A DNA stretch of 5,081 bases from an uncultured Spirochaetales bacterium (GTDB lineage Bacteria; Spirochaetota; Spirochaetia; Sphaerochaetales; Sphaerochaetaceae), in assembly GCA_947306375.1 (NCBI GenBank), contig CAMZGJ010000079.1, positions 1-5,081 of the forward strand, written 5' to 3'. A model generated the notes under the pieces. That model searched no databases. It saw only the letters and a list, made by a program, of their open reading frames with translations, and was not told the DNA's origin. The translations under genes were made by a program, and so were the position numbers. Shown piece by piece: positions 344 to 5,081 of the stretch. Position 1 is the first letter of the stretch, and each line of letters begins with the position of its first letter.

Positions 344-349
344 TATAAT
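344..349 (+). promoter_or_regulatory. Candidate -10 box (TATAAT)
   Basis: A perfect TATAAT lies in an AT-rich stretch, about 7 bases before the start of the structured region. With spacers of 16-18 bases no good -35 hexamer is found (TTACTA at 322-327 is the best match), so the call rests on the -10 box and its position ahead of an RNA-like segment that ends in a terminator. The start of transcription would be near 356. Confidence 0.4.
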
Positions 350-355
350 AAAAAC

Positions 356-435
356 AGAGTCCGGCCAGGGTAGCGGCTGAGCCTTGAAGTGTTTTTTAGA
401 AAACTGCCTTCTAATCCAAGGCAGTTTATTTTTTT
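356..435 (+). ncRNA. Candidate small RNA or attenuator leader upstream of the deoxyribosyltransferase gene
   Basis: From the TATAAT box to the U-tract this would be an RNA of about 80 nt. By eye, 362-366 pairs with 375-379 (CGGCC/GGCTG, one G-U) around an 8-base loop AGGGTAGC. The loop bases 367-370 (AGGG) can pair with 382-385 (CCTT), which would make a compact H-type pseudoknot. The same downstream strand, 381-386 (GCCTTG), is complementary to 417-422 (CAAGGC), the 3' arm of the terminator. The folds therefore exclude each other, as in a riboswitch or attenuator. No clear promoter lies between the terminator and the gene at 514, so read-through control of that gene is plausible. It could equally be a free-standing sRNA. 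I cannot assign it to a known riboswitch class. Confidence 0.4.
401..435 (+). terminator. Intrinsic (rho-independent) terminator
   Basis: A perfect 10-bp stem, AAACTGCCTT (401-410) with AAGGCAGTTT (418-427), closes a 7-base loop and is followed by one A and a run of seven T (429-435). The plus strand is the terminating direction. It ends the candidate RNA starting near 356 and lies 78 bases before the next start codon, so it could act as an attenuator for that gene. Confidence 0.88.
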
Positions 436-486
436 AGCTGCTATCAGCACCTCAGAAAAACAACACAATTGTGGTATCCCTGAAAA

Positions 487-508
487 CCTGTTATCCTTAA
501 ACAGGAGA
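487..508 (+). promoter_or_regulatory. Hairpin overlapping the ribosome binding site of the deoxyribosyltransferase gene
   Basis: CCTGTT (487-492) pairs perfectly with AACAGG (500-505) around the loop ATCCTTA. The 3' arm includes the first three bases of the Shine-Dalgarno sequence AGGAGA (503-508), which lies 5 bases before the ATG at 514. The stem could lower ribosome access. Whether it forms in the transcript is not known; six base pairs, half of them A-T, is modest stability. Confidence 0.45.
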
Positions 509-513
509 AAGAA

Positions 514-999
514 ATGAAGGTTTATATCGGCGGACCCATGTTTGAAATCTCAGATGTCCTTTACAACAGAAGACTCAGAGATCTGTTGCTGGAAAAAGGC
601 TTTGAGGTTTACTGCCCAAATGACAACGAGGGAATAAACGACAAATCAAATACAGATATCACCGGAGAAAGAATCTACGAAGAAGATATCAAAAATCTGG
701 AAGACTGCAATGTGTTTCTCTGCAGGATGGTTGATGACAGCGGCACAATGTGGGAGGCAGGGTATATGGACTGCCTTGCAAGAAAGGTGAATCCTTCCAA
801 ATACTACGGCTGCATAGGACTTGCCACCGATATAAGGCTTAATACAACTCCGGATTCTTCCAAAAGCGGCATTGACAACCAGTCAATGTACCTGAACCAG
901 TTCATGGTAGGCGGACTGAAGCTCTCCCTGGGAGCGGCAATGTCAGAGCAGGAGCTGATTGAAAAACTCTGTAAGATAAGAGCGGAAAGAGAGGCGTGA
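514..999 (+). CDS. Nucleoside 2-deoxyribosyltransferase-like protein
   Basis: This 161-residue protein is of usual length for the nucleoside 2-deoxyribosyltransferase family. These cytosolic enzymes move or hydrolyse the 2-deoxyribosyl (or ribosyl) group of nucleosides or nucleotides in salvage. Seen: the N-terminal strand YIGGPMF (4-10) that precedes the nucleotide loop; acidic residues in YEEDIKNLEDCNVFLCR (55-71); the signature D75-S-G-T-M-W-E81-A-G-Y, in which E81 matches the catalytic glutamate; then a TDIR segment (105-108) and LNQFMVGGL (127-135) near the C-terminus, where the family has N-P-M-I-x-G-like residues. The ATG has AGGAGA five bases upstream. The gene stands alone on its strand, after a candidate attenuator and convergent with the MATE gene. 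The precise substrate cannot be told; hydrolase relatives of the 2'-deoxynucleoside 5'-phosphate type share the fold. Confidence 0.87.
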   Translation: MKVYIGGPMFEISDVLYNRRLRDLLLEKGFEVYCPNDNEGINDKSNTDITGERIYEEDIKNLEDCNVFLCRMVDDSGTMWEAGYMDCLARKVNPSKYYGCIGLATDIRLNTTPDSSKSGIDNQSMYLNQFMVGGLKLSLGAAMSEQELIEKLCKIRAEREA

Positions 1000-1016
1000 A
1001 ACCGGGTTTTCACACC
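993..1016. terminator. Candidate shared hairpin between convergent genes
   Basis: GGCGTGAAA (993-1001) pairs with TTTCACACC (1008-1016), 8 of 9 positions with one C-A mismatch, around the loop CCGGGT. It spans the 10-base gap between the two convergent genes and overlaps both stop codons. Neither side has a real T-tract, so termination is inferred from position and symmetry only. Confidence 0.4.
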
Positions 1017-2767
1017 TTAATTGTAAGAACATTCAAGCCCAGAATTCTCTTGTAACGGAAATCCTTTGCCACACTTGCCACAAGGCGGATACCTATGTTA
1101 CTGACGGGGTCAGAATTGTCCATCATCTCAGCAAACTGCTTGGGGTTGAAAGAGATACAGTCATCCGAGATTCTGAGGACCAGATTGTTGGACTTACAGA
1201 CAACGCGGATATCAATGGTGTGTTTTTTGTTGTCCGTGAAGCCATGTCTGACAATGTTGCCGGCCATTTCCTCAAGACAGACAGCAATGTGGTAGGCCCT
1301 CTTTCTGGGAATGCCCCGCTCAATGCAGAAATCCATTACATAGTCGGCGGTGTCTGAAACCTCCTCCATGCTTTGTATTGTAAGATCCACGCGCCTGTTT
1401 TCCGGTGTGCCGAAATTGTCCGGAAGGGCAATGAGGTCCGCATAACTGCGTGGAATTCTGCGGATTTTGAAGGATATGAAGGAGAGCACAAAAATTGCCG
1501 AGCCAATGCCGTCCGCAACAAAGGCAAGCCAGCCGCCGTCCGCTCCCATAAGAGGGATAAGAATGACGGATGCAATTGAGACCATGAGAAAACCGTCCAC
1601 AAAGGTCACGACAAGCGGGAATTTAATGAAGCCGCGGCTTTGCAGGTTGTTTGCAATGGTAAGGTTGAAGCACTGGAAAATCATGTAGGCTGACATACAG
1701 CGCAGGGAACCGGCAGTGAGGTTGATTGCGTTCACCTCGTCCGCAGTGAAGAAGAAACCTGCAATCTGTTTGGCAAAAACGGAGATTACAACCATGAACA
1801 GAACCGATGTACCCAGCCCCAGTGTCATTGCAACACGCACGGTTTCAAGAAGGCTTGTTCTGTCCTGCTCACCGGAATAGATGCTGGAAAGCACCCTTGT
1901 GTTGTCTATTGTGCCGTTGGAAGCTGCAAAGATTATGAAGGCAAAAGAAGAGCAGGCCGCAAAGGCGGCAACCGCATCTCCGCCGGAGTATCTGAACAGC
2001 AGGGTGTTGATCAGGACCGACCTGAGGAACAGGCACATGAACAGCAGAGCCCCGGGGGAACCAAGCTTGATCACTTCTCCCAGGTCGCTTATTTTCAGGT
2101 GTCTGAAATCAAGGCGGATTGTATGCTTTTTGGAAAGATAATGAGGCATTAGGATGAGAAGGAATACAACGTAGGCAAAGAACGAGGAAATGCCCAGACC
2201 GTAAAGACCCATGTTGTATTTTTTGAGGAAGACCACATCCAGCACGGCATTTGTAACGGTCATAAACGCAATTCCCACGTAGGAACGCTTTTCCGCATTG
2301 TCCATTTGAAGGAATGCGGATGCCTGGCTGCAGATCATTGTGGGAATGAAACTCGGAGCCATGCCGCGTATGTAATCCGAAAGACCGTCAACGGAAGAAC
2401 CGGAGGCACCCAGGAGATTTGCTATCTGACGGGGCGCTATAAGACATATGGCTGTTATTGTTCCGGAGATTACAAAAGAGGCAGTGATATCAAGGGTAAA
2501 GACGCTGTTTGAGCGGTCCAGGTTGTTTCTTCCAAGAAGGTTGCCGCACTTTATCTGGGAACCTCCCTGAAGCGCGTTGCCTATGGCAATGAGTATGCAG
2601 TTTATGGGGAAAAAGAAACCTATGGCCTCAATTCCGTTTACTCCAATCATCTTGCCGGCAATAATGCTGTCTACCAGGCTGTTCAAACCTCCCAGAGTTG
2701 AAAGCAACATGAAAATGGGAAACATCTTAATGAAAAGCCTGGTCGGAAGTCCGCTTTTATGTTCCAT
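1010..2767 (-). CDS. MATE-family transporter fused to a C-terminal HATPase (RsbW/SpoIIAB-like) domain
   Basis: The protein has 585 residues; a plain MATE pump has about 450. Residues 1-435 are about twelve hydrophobic segments of MATE type, with the typical first-helix region GGLNSLVDSIIAGKMIGVNG (27-45). MATE proteins in the cytoplasmic membrane exchange drugs or metabolites for Na+ or H+. Residues about 460-585 form a Bergerat-fold ATPase domain of the HATPase_c_2 kind: N-box LEEMAGNIVRHGF (498-510, with E499/E500 and N504), a G1-like box SDDCISFNP (534-542), and a G2-like NIGIRLV (557-563). The G1 glycine is replaced (DDC), so ATP binding or kinase activity is uncertain; DDC variants are, as I recall, common in such fusions. 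The start is chosen as ATG 2767-2765, with GAGGA eight bases upstream; GTG 2770 directly before it is possible. It is divergent from the AEC gene. The substrate is unknown, and the ATPase domain may sense or regulate rather than power transport. Confidence 0.9.
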   Translation of the reverse strand: MEHKSGLPTRLFIKMFPIFMLLSTLGGLNSLVDSIIAGKMIGVNGIEAIGFFFPINCILIAIGNALQGGSQIKCGNLLGRNNLDRSNSVFTLDITASFVISGTITAICLIAPRQIANLLGASGSSVDGLSDYIRGMAPSFIPTMICSQASAFLQMDNAEKRSYVGIAFMTVTNAVLDVVFLKKYNMGLYGLGISSFFAYVVFLLILMPHYLSKKHTIRLDFRHLKISDLGEVIKLGSPGALLFMCLFLRSVLINTLLFRYSGGDAVAAFAACSSFAFIIFAASNGTIDNTRVLSSIYSGEQDRTSLLETVRVAMTLGLGTSVLFMVVISVFAKQIAGFFFTADEVNAINLTAGSLRCMSAYMIFQCFNLTIANNLQSRGFIKFPLVVTFVDGFLMVSIASVILIPLMGADGGWLAFVADGIGSAIFVLSFISFKIRRIPRSYADLIALPDNFGTPENRRVDLTIQSMEEVSDTADYVMDFCIERGIPRKRAYHIAVCLEEMAGNIVRHGFTDNKKHTIDIRVVCKSNNLVLRISDDCISFNPKQFAEMMDNSDPVSNIGIRLVASVAKDFRYKRILGLNVLTIKV

Positions 2768-2790
2768 CACTCCATTCCTCTTGTCTTTAA

Positions 2791-2896: not shown

Positions 2897-3841
2897 ATGG
2901 AAGTAATGAAGATATCGGCGGCAGCCGTGTTTCCGCTTTTGGGATTCATGCTGCTGGGTTATTTTTTCAGGCGCAGGAGTTATCTTGATGAGGCCTCCAC
3001 AAAACAGCTCAATCTGATCTGTTTCAGGTTCTTTCTTGCCCTTACATGCGGGGAGACCATCTACAAGTCAGATATCAGGCATATAGCGGAGCCGCTTCCG
3101 CTTGTGATTGTAAGCGTGAGCATTGTGGCAACCTTCCTGCTGTCCTGGTTCATTGTCACGCGTTTTGTTAAGGATAGAACCCGGATTCCGGTTCTGATTC
3201 AGGGTGTCTACAAGACAAACTACACTCTGGTGGGCCTGAGCGTGGCAAAGAGCATCTGCGGTGAGAACAACGTGGGCATGGTCTCCCTGATTACAGTCCT
3301 TCTGGTGCCGCTGAACAACATTATTTCCGTCTATATTTTTGAGAAATACACGGGAAAGTCAGATTCCCGAGTGCCTCTGATAGTGCGCATAATAAAGAAT
3401 CCTCTGGTTCTGGGAAGCCTTATCGGAATACTACTCAATGTGACGGGTGTGGTAATTCCTCAGTGGATAATGACGGGCTTTGTTGCAAAACTCAGCGGAC
3501 TTACAACGCCGCTTTCCATGATAGCCCTGGGCGCGGCCTTCAACTTTTCAAGTTTTCCCAAATACAGGGCGGAAATTACCTGGGCGGTGCTCGGAAAGCT
3601 TGTATTCGTGCCCATGCTGGTCCTGCCGGTTGCCGTTTTACTCGGCCTCAGAGGACCATCTCTCATTGCAGTGGCAATCTTTGCGGTTGCTCCCAACGCG
3701 GTCAATTCCTACAACACCGCCGTGGCAATGGGAGGAGATGCGGATCTGGCCAACGGAATTGTGGTGGCCTCCGCCTTACTGAGCATCCTCACCATGTTCG
3801 GATGGTTCTGCCTCATAGGTTTCACCGTAGGCCTGAGCTGA
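2897..3841 (+). CDS. AEC-family permease (auxin efflux carrier type)
   Basis: The protein has 314 residues from the chosen start, normal for bacterial AEC transporters, which sit in the cytoplasmic membrane and export or exchange small organic acids such as malate or malonate. Seen: about ten hydrophobic segments in two groups; the N-terminal FPLLGFMLLGYFFRRRSYLD with the basic turn typical of the family; QGVYKTNYTLVGLSVA (102-117), matching the usual Q-G-x-x-R/K-x-N-x-x-L-x-G motif; and near the end APNAVNSYNTAVAMGGDADL (265-284), matching the conserved A-P-x-A-V-x-x-Y-x-x-A-x-x-M-G-G-D. The start at 2897 has GGAAG five bases upstream; GTG 2879 (+6 residues) and ATG 2906 (-3) are alternatives. 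It is divergent from the MATE gene. Its last 63 coding bases and its stop codon overlap the small gene on the opposite strand. The substrate cannot be told. Confidence 0.9.
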   Translation: MEVMKISAAAVFPLLGFMLLGYFFRRRSYLDEASTKQLNLICFRFFLALTCGETIYKSDIRHIAEPLPLVIVSVSIVATFLLSWFIVTRFVKDRTRIPVLIQGVYKTNYTLVGLSVAKSICGENNVGMVSLITVLLVPLNNIISVYIFEKYTGKSDSRVPLIVRIIKNPLVLGSLIGILLNVTGVVIPQWIMTGFVAKLSGLTTPLSMIALGAAFNFSSFPKYRAEITWAVLGKLVFVPMLVLPVAVLLGLRGPSLIAVAIFAVAPNAVNSYNTAVAMGGDADLANGIVVASALLSILTMFGWFCLIGFTVGLS

Positions 3842-4021
3842 GTTTATTCTCTCGGATTCTTCCTCAATCATGTCCTCAAAGCCGGTCAAAGCGGCAAACG
3901 GCGCAAAAATGGCCGCCCGGTCATATAGGCTCATCCGCGGGTGTTTTGAGGATACATGCGGAGGAAGGTCAATTATGTCTGCATAGATTCTGCGTGTTTG
4001 TGCTCTCTCACTCTCCTGCAT
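3776..4021 (-). CDS. Small polymerase-partner protein, apparently truncated, with overprinted C-terminal tail
   Basis: This 81-residue protein is translated just after the polymerase. Its ATG lies inside the end of the polymerase gene (14-base overlap) with AGGAGG five bases upstream. Residues 12-59 hold the pattern IYADIIDLPPHVSSKHPRMS ... DRAAIFAPFAALTG, which I recognise as the small protein found directly after Y-family polymerases in clostridia, probably analogous to YolD next to UvrX in Bacillus; its role is not known. From memory those proteins run to about 110-130 residues with a basic/acidic C-terminal part that ends in an E-I-P-I-x-D-I-x-x-I-like segment. Here that part is absent. 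Residues 61-81, rich in Glu, Ser, Ala and Gln, are read antisense through the end of the permease gene. Translation coupling to the polymerase is likely. Whether the short product still works is open. Confidence 0.72.
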   Translation of the reverse strand: MQESERAQTRRIYADIIDLPPHVSSKHPRMSLYDRAAIFAPFAALTGFEDMIEEESERINSAQAYGETYEAEPSEHGEDAQ

Positions 4022-5081
4022 TGTGACCTCCTATCTGCCTGTTTCTCTCTATTGTGGTGCCGCCGCGCTCAAGATTCATGCCCTTGAGAACGGCATTCTT
4101 TCCGAACTTCTGCTTCAGCTTCAAAGTGGCCTCCTGAACACGCTTTTCCCTGTCATCCGGCTCAGGGCGCCCGTCTGCGGAACCGGCAGAAGTCTCTGCC
4201 GATGCAAACAGGTCCGGCTGCACCTCTTCCTTTGAAGCCTTTTCCGCGCTCAGTATGTTCACCGCATTGACGGTGACACGCCTTATGAGAAGGCGAGGGT
4301 CAACAACCCTGTCAAAAATCTCCATGAAGGCCAGGGTTATGCGCCTGGAGGAACTGGTCCAGACTTCCATGTTTGCAGTTCCCTGTGCATGGGGTGGGGC
4401 GGGCCTTCCGTAGTAGTCAAGAGAAACGGGGCCGGTGTATTTTTCTCCGTTTGTTGAAAAGACATAACTCCCGCTCTCATCTTTTTTAAGGCTTTCCCTG
4501 TCAAAGTTTATGTAAAGAACAACCTGTTTTGTCACAAGACCCTTTCTCACAAGATCCAGGGCAAGGTTGTCTGCCATCTCCTTTACTATGAGACGGCCCC
4601 TGTCCGAGGGATAGGGCTCCTTGAGCACCTGGCCTGAGCTGAGGCTGTTGGTCTGCGGCCTGTAGGCCTTTATTGCAGAGATGAGGGTGGGTTCAACACC
4701 CCAGGCATGGTCTATCAGAAGCTCAGCATTCACACCAAGGGCCTTGTAGATCACATCTTCATTTACAGTGCTCAGGCGTGCAATGTCTCCCATTGTGTAG
4801 CACCCCAGGGCACGCATGCGCCTTGCAATTCCCGGACCGCAGCGCCAGAAATCAGTAAGGGGAGTGTGACACCACAGAAGTTCCCTGTAGGACTGCTCGT
4901 CAAGCTCCGCAATCCTTACCCCGTCCTTGTCCGCGGGTACGTGCTTTGCAACCACGTCCATTGCAATCTTTGCAAGGTACAGATTGGTTCCCACGCCGGC
5001 CGTGGCTGTAATTCCCGTGTTGTACAGCACATCCTTTATCATTGTCATGGCAAGCTCATGGGCCGTCATTGAATAGGTGTT
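4008..5081 (-). CDS. dinB: Y-family DNA polymerase (DinB/UmuC type), partial, 5' end off window
   Basis: 357 codons are visible; the frame continues past base 5081 (N-T-Y-S before the first internal ATG at 5069), so that ATG is not the start. The enzyme performs error-prone translesion synthesis past DNA lesions. Seen, numbered from the first visible codon: the end of the palm with GVGTNLYLAKIAMDVVAKH (29-47), the thumb helix-hairpin-helix TDFWRCGPGIARRMRALGCY (76-95), a little-finger domain (about 140-280, with TNSLSSGQVL at 144-153), a clamp-binding pentapeptide QPDLF (288-292), and the conserved tail KFGKNAVLKGMNLE ... ERNRQIGGH usual in the clostridial group. The N-terminal catalytic S-x-D-E motif lies outside the window, so activity cannot be judged. 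It forms an operon with the small gene downstream. Such genes are often under SOS (LexA) control, but the promoter is not visible here. Confidence 0.92.
   Translation of the reverse strand, partial: NTYSMTAHELAMTMIKDVLYNTGITATAGVGTNLYLAKIAMDVVAKHVPADKDGVRIAELDEQSYRELLWCHTPLTDFWRCGPGIARRMRALGCYTMGDIARLSTVNEDVIYKALGVNAELLIDHAWGVEPTLISAIKAYRPQTNSLSSGQVLKEPYPSDRGRLIVKEMADNLALDLVRKGLVTKQVVLYINFDRESLKKDESGSYVFSTNGEKYTGPVSLDYYGRPAPPHAQGTANMEVWTSSSRRITLAFMEIFDRVVDPRLLIRRVTVNAVNILSAEKASKEEVQPDLFASAETSAGSADGRPEPDDREKRVQEATLKLKQKFGKNAVLKGMNLERGGTTIERNRQIGGHNAGE
4027..4032 (-). promoter_or_regulatory. Strong Shine-Dalgarno for the small partner gene
   Basis: On the minus strand AGGAGG is read 5 bases before the ATG at 4021-4019, inside the last codons of the polymerase gene. 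It fixes the start of the small gene and supports coupled translation of the pair. Confidence 0.75.

Follow-up and report, generated by a model that had tools for sequence, protein, structure and literature searches.

The window, the whole 5,081-nt stretch analysed here, forms positions 1 to 5,081 of contig CAMZGJ010000079.1 from an uncultured Sphaerochaetaceae bacterium. Its positions 344-435 lie between a gene at 1-267 on the opposite strand and a nucleoside 2-deoxyribosyltransferase-like gene on the same strand, and contain or adjoin the following features:

344..349, + strand: TATAAT, the -10 element of the predicted RNA promoter (from sequence; start inferred at about 356)
356..435, + strand: predicted antitoxin-type RNA of about 78 nt whose 3' end is the terminator (R1 and R2 covariance-model matches in relatives; start inferred)
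357..385, + strand: outer stem P0, 357-359 with 383-385 (GAG/CTT; hand alignment of 17 rows)
362..379, + strand: stem P1, 362-366/375-379, with loop 367-374 (aligned copies)
367..410, + strand: candidate antiterminator pseudoknot of seven pairs, loop 367-373 (AGGGTAG) with the terminator 5' arm 404-410 (CTGCCTT)
401..435, + strand: intrinsic terminator 401-410/418-427 and T tract (folding; in toxin-linked relatives common to the facing ORF)
436..513, - strand: site of the facing toxin ORF in relatives, absent in the window (ORF check and alignment to toxin genes)
514..999, + strand: nucleoside 2-deoxyribosyltransferase-like gene (PF05014, E 2.2e-12), with a Shine-Dalgarno sequence at about 503-507

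A hairpin (CCTGTT/AACAGG, 488-507) overlaps this Shine-Dalgarno sequence. Further downstream, positions 1010-2770 (- strand) encode a MATE transporter (MatE) that carries a HATPase_c_2 domain at its C-terminus as a fusion, and within 3776-5069 (- strand) a Y-family polymerase-like gene (IMS_C) is overlapped at its end by a small frame with no Pfam match, an order also found in another genome of the genus (G002:C9).

A sequence-only reading of this region had proposed a riboswitch-like pseudoknot attenuator. All four complementarities that it described are present: 362-366/375-379, 367-370/382-385 (with one G-U pair), 381-386/417-422 and 401-410/418-427. The last is a strong terminator, as had been claimed, with a folding energy of -12.5 kcal/mol (z -5.0) that was equalled by 0 of 200 shuffled sequences. 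The folding of 356-400 is unremarkable (z +0.85; 163 of 200 shuffles equally good), so that conservation is the evidence that counts for this part. Here the proposed helices differed in their fate. The stem 362-366/375-379 is conserved, with all five pairs kept in the five close copies, the window included. The loop-to-tail pseudoknot 367-370/382-385 loses two of its four pairs in the same-genus relative G001, and the alternative pairing 381-386/417-422, present in the window, loses one of its six pairs there. The pairing of loop 367-373 with 404-410 is a further one of the same loop, outside the list of that reading.

The -10 element recurs at the same position in four close relatives as TACAAT, TATAAT, TATAAT and TATTAT. 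The -35 region is weak in the window, and by eye reads TTGACC, TTGATA, TTGAAA and TTGAAC in the relatives. Our promoter scan called no site at 344-349.

A DNA search of three genomes of the window's genus revealed one further copy, in G001, with 76 percent identity over 344-435, and an exact motif search of 139 family genomes gave matches in G000 and G001 only. A covariance model built from these two copies (R1) was searched in 138 family genomes and found strong copies in a second genus, two in G119 and one in G120 (59-85 bits, E down to 2.5e-17), together with decayed copies in G118 and G119. The RNA, whose conservation the sequence-only reading had named as a test of its proposal, thus recurs in other Sphaerochaetaceae. 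At E <= 1, R1 matched 19 of the 138 genomes, and 16 matches listed were judged; among these we kept the close copies, two decayed ones (L042 and L022) and, at a later stage, L024; the remaining places resemble other terminators or a tRNA region and were rejected. The training set of a second model (R2) was limited to two genera, that of the window and that of G119 and G120; with R1 and R2, the copies in G001, G119 (two) and G120 scored 59-120 bits. In an order-level search of 139 genomes from 22 genera, R2 matched 11 genomes at E <= 0.01. Five of its matches (L073, L074, L077, L078 and L079) were rejected as false by eye. In a separate R2 search at E <= 0.1, one match (E 0.009) fell on the opposite strand of the G001 copy; the terminator stem is palindromic, and the covariance model also matches it on the reverse strand. 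Eight matches of a genome scan comprised five known copies and three places rejected as chance (L082, L085 and L088). A 20-base match inside a gene of the window's own genome (C13) and five viral matches, taken as chance since by eye the surrounding RNA is missing, were likewise rejected. Viral scans with a toxin pattern and a hairpin pattern gave no matches.

We aligned 17 of the 25 hairpin places by hand, leaving out L095 (two), L111, L024, L075, L072, L080 and L042 and setting aside one A of the G001 row as a bulge. The P1 pairs are kept in 17, 8, 17, 17 and 17 rows and the P0 pairs in 14, 17, 16 and 17 rows. P0 is weak in the window and stronger in relatives (AGAG/CTCT, GAGG/CCTC). The tool's pair count over five rows contained no two-sided change, and exchanges between G-C and A-U at the first three P0 pairs and the third P1 pair appear in the hand alignment only, where they depend on its register, that of P0 being hand-chosen.

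What the homologous RNAs face on the opposite strand lay outside what could be seen in the window. Each of the copies in G119 (two) and G120 faces a hydrophobic ORF of 23-33 codons with a Shine-Dalgarno sequence, for example MTDYEILSLVILLLAILVAALKK; the ORF is convergent with the RNA and ends at the terminator of the RNA. Applied to 138 family genomes, a search pattern for such ORFs that was blind to the RNA gave 26 places, spread over 19 of the genomes, compared with two places for a reversed-pattern control; the window's genus (three genomes) had none. Of the 26 places, 22 are hydrophobic ORFs of only 22-33 codons, one of which (L112) is cut by a contig end and repeats L104; the places dropped were L091 (eight codons, broken) and the long frames L092, L106 and L108 (289-333 codons). 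Seventeen of the 22 face a hairpin RNA and terminator, the hairpin having been recognised by eye and placed by script. The other five have no listed hairpin (L093, L102, L099, L112 and L115), although L093 and L102, which share the same peptide and flank, carry a diverged hairpin visible by eye. Among 17 short-ORF loci from genera other than those used for its training, R2 matched the RNA beside 11, weakly, with E between 3e-4 and 0.08, and at E <= 0.1 had no match beside the remaining six (L093, L095, L099, L102, L110 and L111). A stricter pattern matched five of 392 phylum genomes; four were Sphaerochaetaceae, and the fifth was rejected as false (G202, a frame of 68 codons that lacks the RNA).

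At 12 of the 17 loci whose ORF faces a hairpin RNA, the ORF ends in Lys-Lys-stop, read from the T tract of the RNA. Among 11 toxin genes, differences at codon positions 1, 2 and 3 numbered 173, 28 and 398, and 292 of 468 differing codon pairs were synonymous; judged from this substitution pattern, the facing ORFs are under coding constraint. None of the 13 peptides scanned, out of 18 distinct ones, reached the cut-off of a Pfam or NCBIfam family, the Fst/Ldr family included. Below the cut-off, Holin_SPP1 (one peptide, E 0.004) and Heimdall-CTERM (E 0.005) were set aside as generic membrane-helix matches, PF00746 appeared in one peptide (E 0.071), and the best PHROGs match of five peptides had an E of 0.076. 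G119 contains several toxin-antitoxin units, two apparently in tandem (L047 1-360, L048 1-255, L059 1500-1760); at the L059 ORF, an unrelated terminator stands where the antitoxin would be.

Beyond the terminator, complementarity between the two predicted RNAs varies among loci. A second pairing region, corresponding to direct repeats, was equalled by at most 3 of 200 shuffles in three of the 17 loci and by 7-8 of 200 in two more, and was weaker in the other 12. This region has 19 of 20 identical bases in L094 and likewise in L096, and in L109 it is the start-codon region. In L037, the linker forms 16 pairs, G-U included, over the ribosome site (12 of 500 shuffles), compared with 289-475 of 500 for three other pairs; we rejected such pairing as a general rule, since it holds in one of four pairs. 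Linker-toxin complementarity is significant in a minority of pairs only. Where a comparison within the genus was possible, at 16 loci, cognate duplex energies rank top in three (L094, L113 and L021), and cognate pairs do not in general outdo non-cognate pairs.

Unexpectedly, in 16 of 17 pairs, L020 being the exception, the toxin leader and the antitoxin begin with the same 5' motif in the same sense, a likeness reached by no more than 2 of 500 shuffles. Its presence on both RNAs (L090-L113, L021, L037) means that inverted repeats lie at both ends of the DNA module, just inside the two predicted promoters. The window motif recurs in the toxin leaders of two loci from the genus of G119 and G120, L037 and L021 (0 of 500 shuffles each), and has no clear match in the leaders of two loci from further genera (40 and 49 of 500). 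Conceivably, the motif serves a common binding partner or the 5' stability of each RNA itself.

In the window and in G001, no antisense hydrophobic ORF faces the RNA. No clear toxin remnant was detected by comparison with the toxin genes, either at window positions 436-513 (78 bases), where 147 of 300 and 184 of 1000 shuffles aligned equally well, or in G001 (54 of 300 and 486 of 1000). Six more copies of the RNA have no facing ORF (L022, L042, L080, L024, L075 and L072), so toxin loss is common. Of the 138 family genomes, two have a deoxyribosyltransferase homologue (E <= 1e-10); they are the same two that have the orphan RNA, which in both lies upstream of that gene on the same strand. In G002, of the same genus and 78 percent complete, we found neither. 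The G001 contig (C59) carries two genes between the RNA and the deoxyribosyltransferase gene (L017 5641-7959, - strand), a SLFN_AlbA_2/HATPase_c_4 gene and a small frame named by eye as nucleotidyltransferase-like, and is matched by none of the other proteins of the six-protein window set. Several TTGAAGT-type repeats precede the AlbA_2 gene (L002 1410-1475).

Since this RNA family faces tiny membrane-peptide genes in relatives, the window RNA is likely a left-over antidote half. As the probable explanation we favour a predicted RNA gene that stands alone at 344-435 and is the orphan antitoxin of a type I toxin-antitoxin family in Sphaerochaetaceae, one that is par/Fst-like and as yet undescribed. 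The sequences themselves establish the RNA family, its hairpin, the common terminator, the facing ORFs and the lack of such an ORF in the window and G001. The RNA of the relatives would start with the P0/P1 hairpin, continue through a linker and stop at the terminator that it has in common with a convergent mRNA encoding a hydrophobic peptide of 22-33 residues. We infer that the RNAs are transcribed, that this peptide is toxic and that the RNA silences its mRNA by antisense pairing at the shared terminator, to which some loci may add pairing at the toxin ribosome-binding site or leader. The window RNA itself would now be a retained or decaying antitoxin whose action, if any, is in trans; the deoxyribosyltransferase gene is probably just a neighbour. 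Points against this reading are the lack of a toxin or clear remnant at the window, the linkage of RNA and deoxyribosyltransferase gene in two of two genomes, the linker-toxin complementarity seen in a minority of pairs, the cognate pairs that do not in general outdo non-cognate ones, the six loci without an R2 match and the R2 match opposite the G001 copy. As a further counterpoint, the RNA is still structured in two toxin-less genomes, which suggests another role.

Such a role might be that of an attenuator. The sequence-only reading placed one ahead of the deoxyribosyltransferase gene, and a conserved, structured and terminator-ended RNA on the strand of that gene has indeed been found; an attenuator role would use another antiterminator pairing than the one proposed there. 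An ex-antitoxin RNA could have become the leader of the deoxyribosyltransferase operon in the window's genus, with loop 367-373 and arm 404-410 as the antiterminator, an alternative that we regard as unlikely. No less unlikely is the course of events that it implies, in which the antitoxin RNA was rebuilt after toxin loss, so that the hairpin loop pairs with the terminator's 5' arm and polymerase enters the operon. The evidence for it, besides the same-strand linkage in both genomes (with neither RNA nor gene in G002), is the loop-arm pairing: the window and G001 have seven pairs each, a two-sided change in G001 replaces G370-C407 by A-T, G368 becomes A opposite T there, and the energies of -7.6 (window) and -6.5 kcal/mol (G001) compare with -2.2, -1.4 and -0.6 kcal/mol in the three closest toxin-linked copies, where the pairing is absent. 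Shuffled loops reached seven pairs in 346 and 179 of 20000 trials, and in 4 of 20000 for both together, a significance that is overstated because the two copies are related and several pairings were inspected before this one was picked. Moreover, the pairing is known from only these two sequences, the terminator (-12.5 kcal/mol) outweighs it, two genes intervene in G001, and window positions 436-490 do not align to the G001 contig.

The nucleoside-binding riboswitch of the sequence-only reading seems to us highly improbable. A small 5' hairpin followed by a terminator upstream of a nucleoside gene is what such an element would look like, but the loop-tail pseudoknot is broken in G001, the homologous RNAs face hydrophobic ORFs, and we found no evidence of a ligand. 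An Rfam scan of the whole window up to E 5 contained no riboswitch match, and none of its three matches came near the gathering score; the nearest, Mu-gpT-DE at 478-516, covers the ribosome-binding site of the gene that follows, with E 0.19 and 21.1 bits where the gathering score is 49. An ordinary terminator of the upstream unit preceded by a chance hairpin is improbable, if less so: the poor -35 element and a 356-400 segment that folds no better than shuffles would fit it, whereas the upstream gene (1-267) lies on the other strand, and the -10 element, hairpin and terminator recur together in another genus.

A 2025 paper (PMC12390103) states that, until its cyanobacterial case, knowledge of type I systems was confined to Proteobacteria, Firmicutes and Tenericutes. 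A broad literature search on type I toxin-antitoxin systems together with Sphaerochaeta or spirochaetes gave no report of such a system among the matches listed. A spirochaete family with a par-like layout, peptides below every Pfam and NCBIfam cut-off tried and a 5' motif on both RNAs would widen the range of type I systems, and its orphan copies would allow us to ask what an antitoxin RNA does after toxin loss. If the attenuator reading were true, a selfish toxin-antitoxin module would have given rise to a cis-regulator, with type I systems in Spirochaetota as the source family.

Compared with preQ1, 2'-dG, guanidine and other small riboswitches, the window RNA has a similar short hairpin and possible pseudoknot before a terminator, and differs in the Rfam result and in homologues that face short ORFs. 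In the Hol-Tox, BsrG/SR4 and TxpA/RatA systems of Firmicutes, the toxins are likewise small and hydrophobic, and the antisense antitoxin lies at the 3' end. The peptide start M-T/S-x-Y/F-E in our family presumably resembles that of the Hol-Tox, BsrG and TxpA toxins, Hol_Tox (PF16935) was listed for three of the 13 peptides (E 0.30-0.48; best 11.4 bits against a gathering score of 23.3), and the toxin strand of L021 weakly matched the Rfam BsrG model (E 0.32, 20.4 bits against 55). All of these matches are below the cut-off, however, and the present peptides have 22-33 residues and belong to another phylum.

In layout, the counterpart is par/Fst (RNA I/RNA II of pAD1), which PMC7472228 describes as convergent toxin and antitoxin genes with a shared bidirectional terminator, a short hydrophobic peptide with a Shine-Dalgarno sequence and a short antitoxin RNA. 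In contrast to par/Fst, the PxxxG motif of Fst is absent, the peptides having by eye no proline, direct repeats are clear in only three of 17 loci, a same-sense 5' motif is common to toxin leader and antitoxin, and the window copy has no toxin. The likeness lies in the layout of the relatives: convergent genes at 17 of the 22 short ORFs (with the window and G001 as orphan copies), a toxin stop at the antitoxin's terminator, a short hydrophobic peptide with a Shine-Dalgarno sequence, and a short predicted antitoxin RNA.
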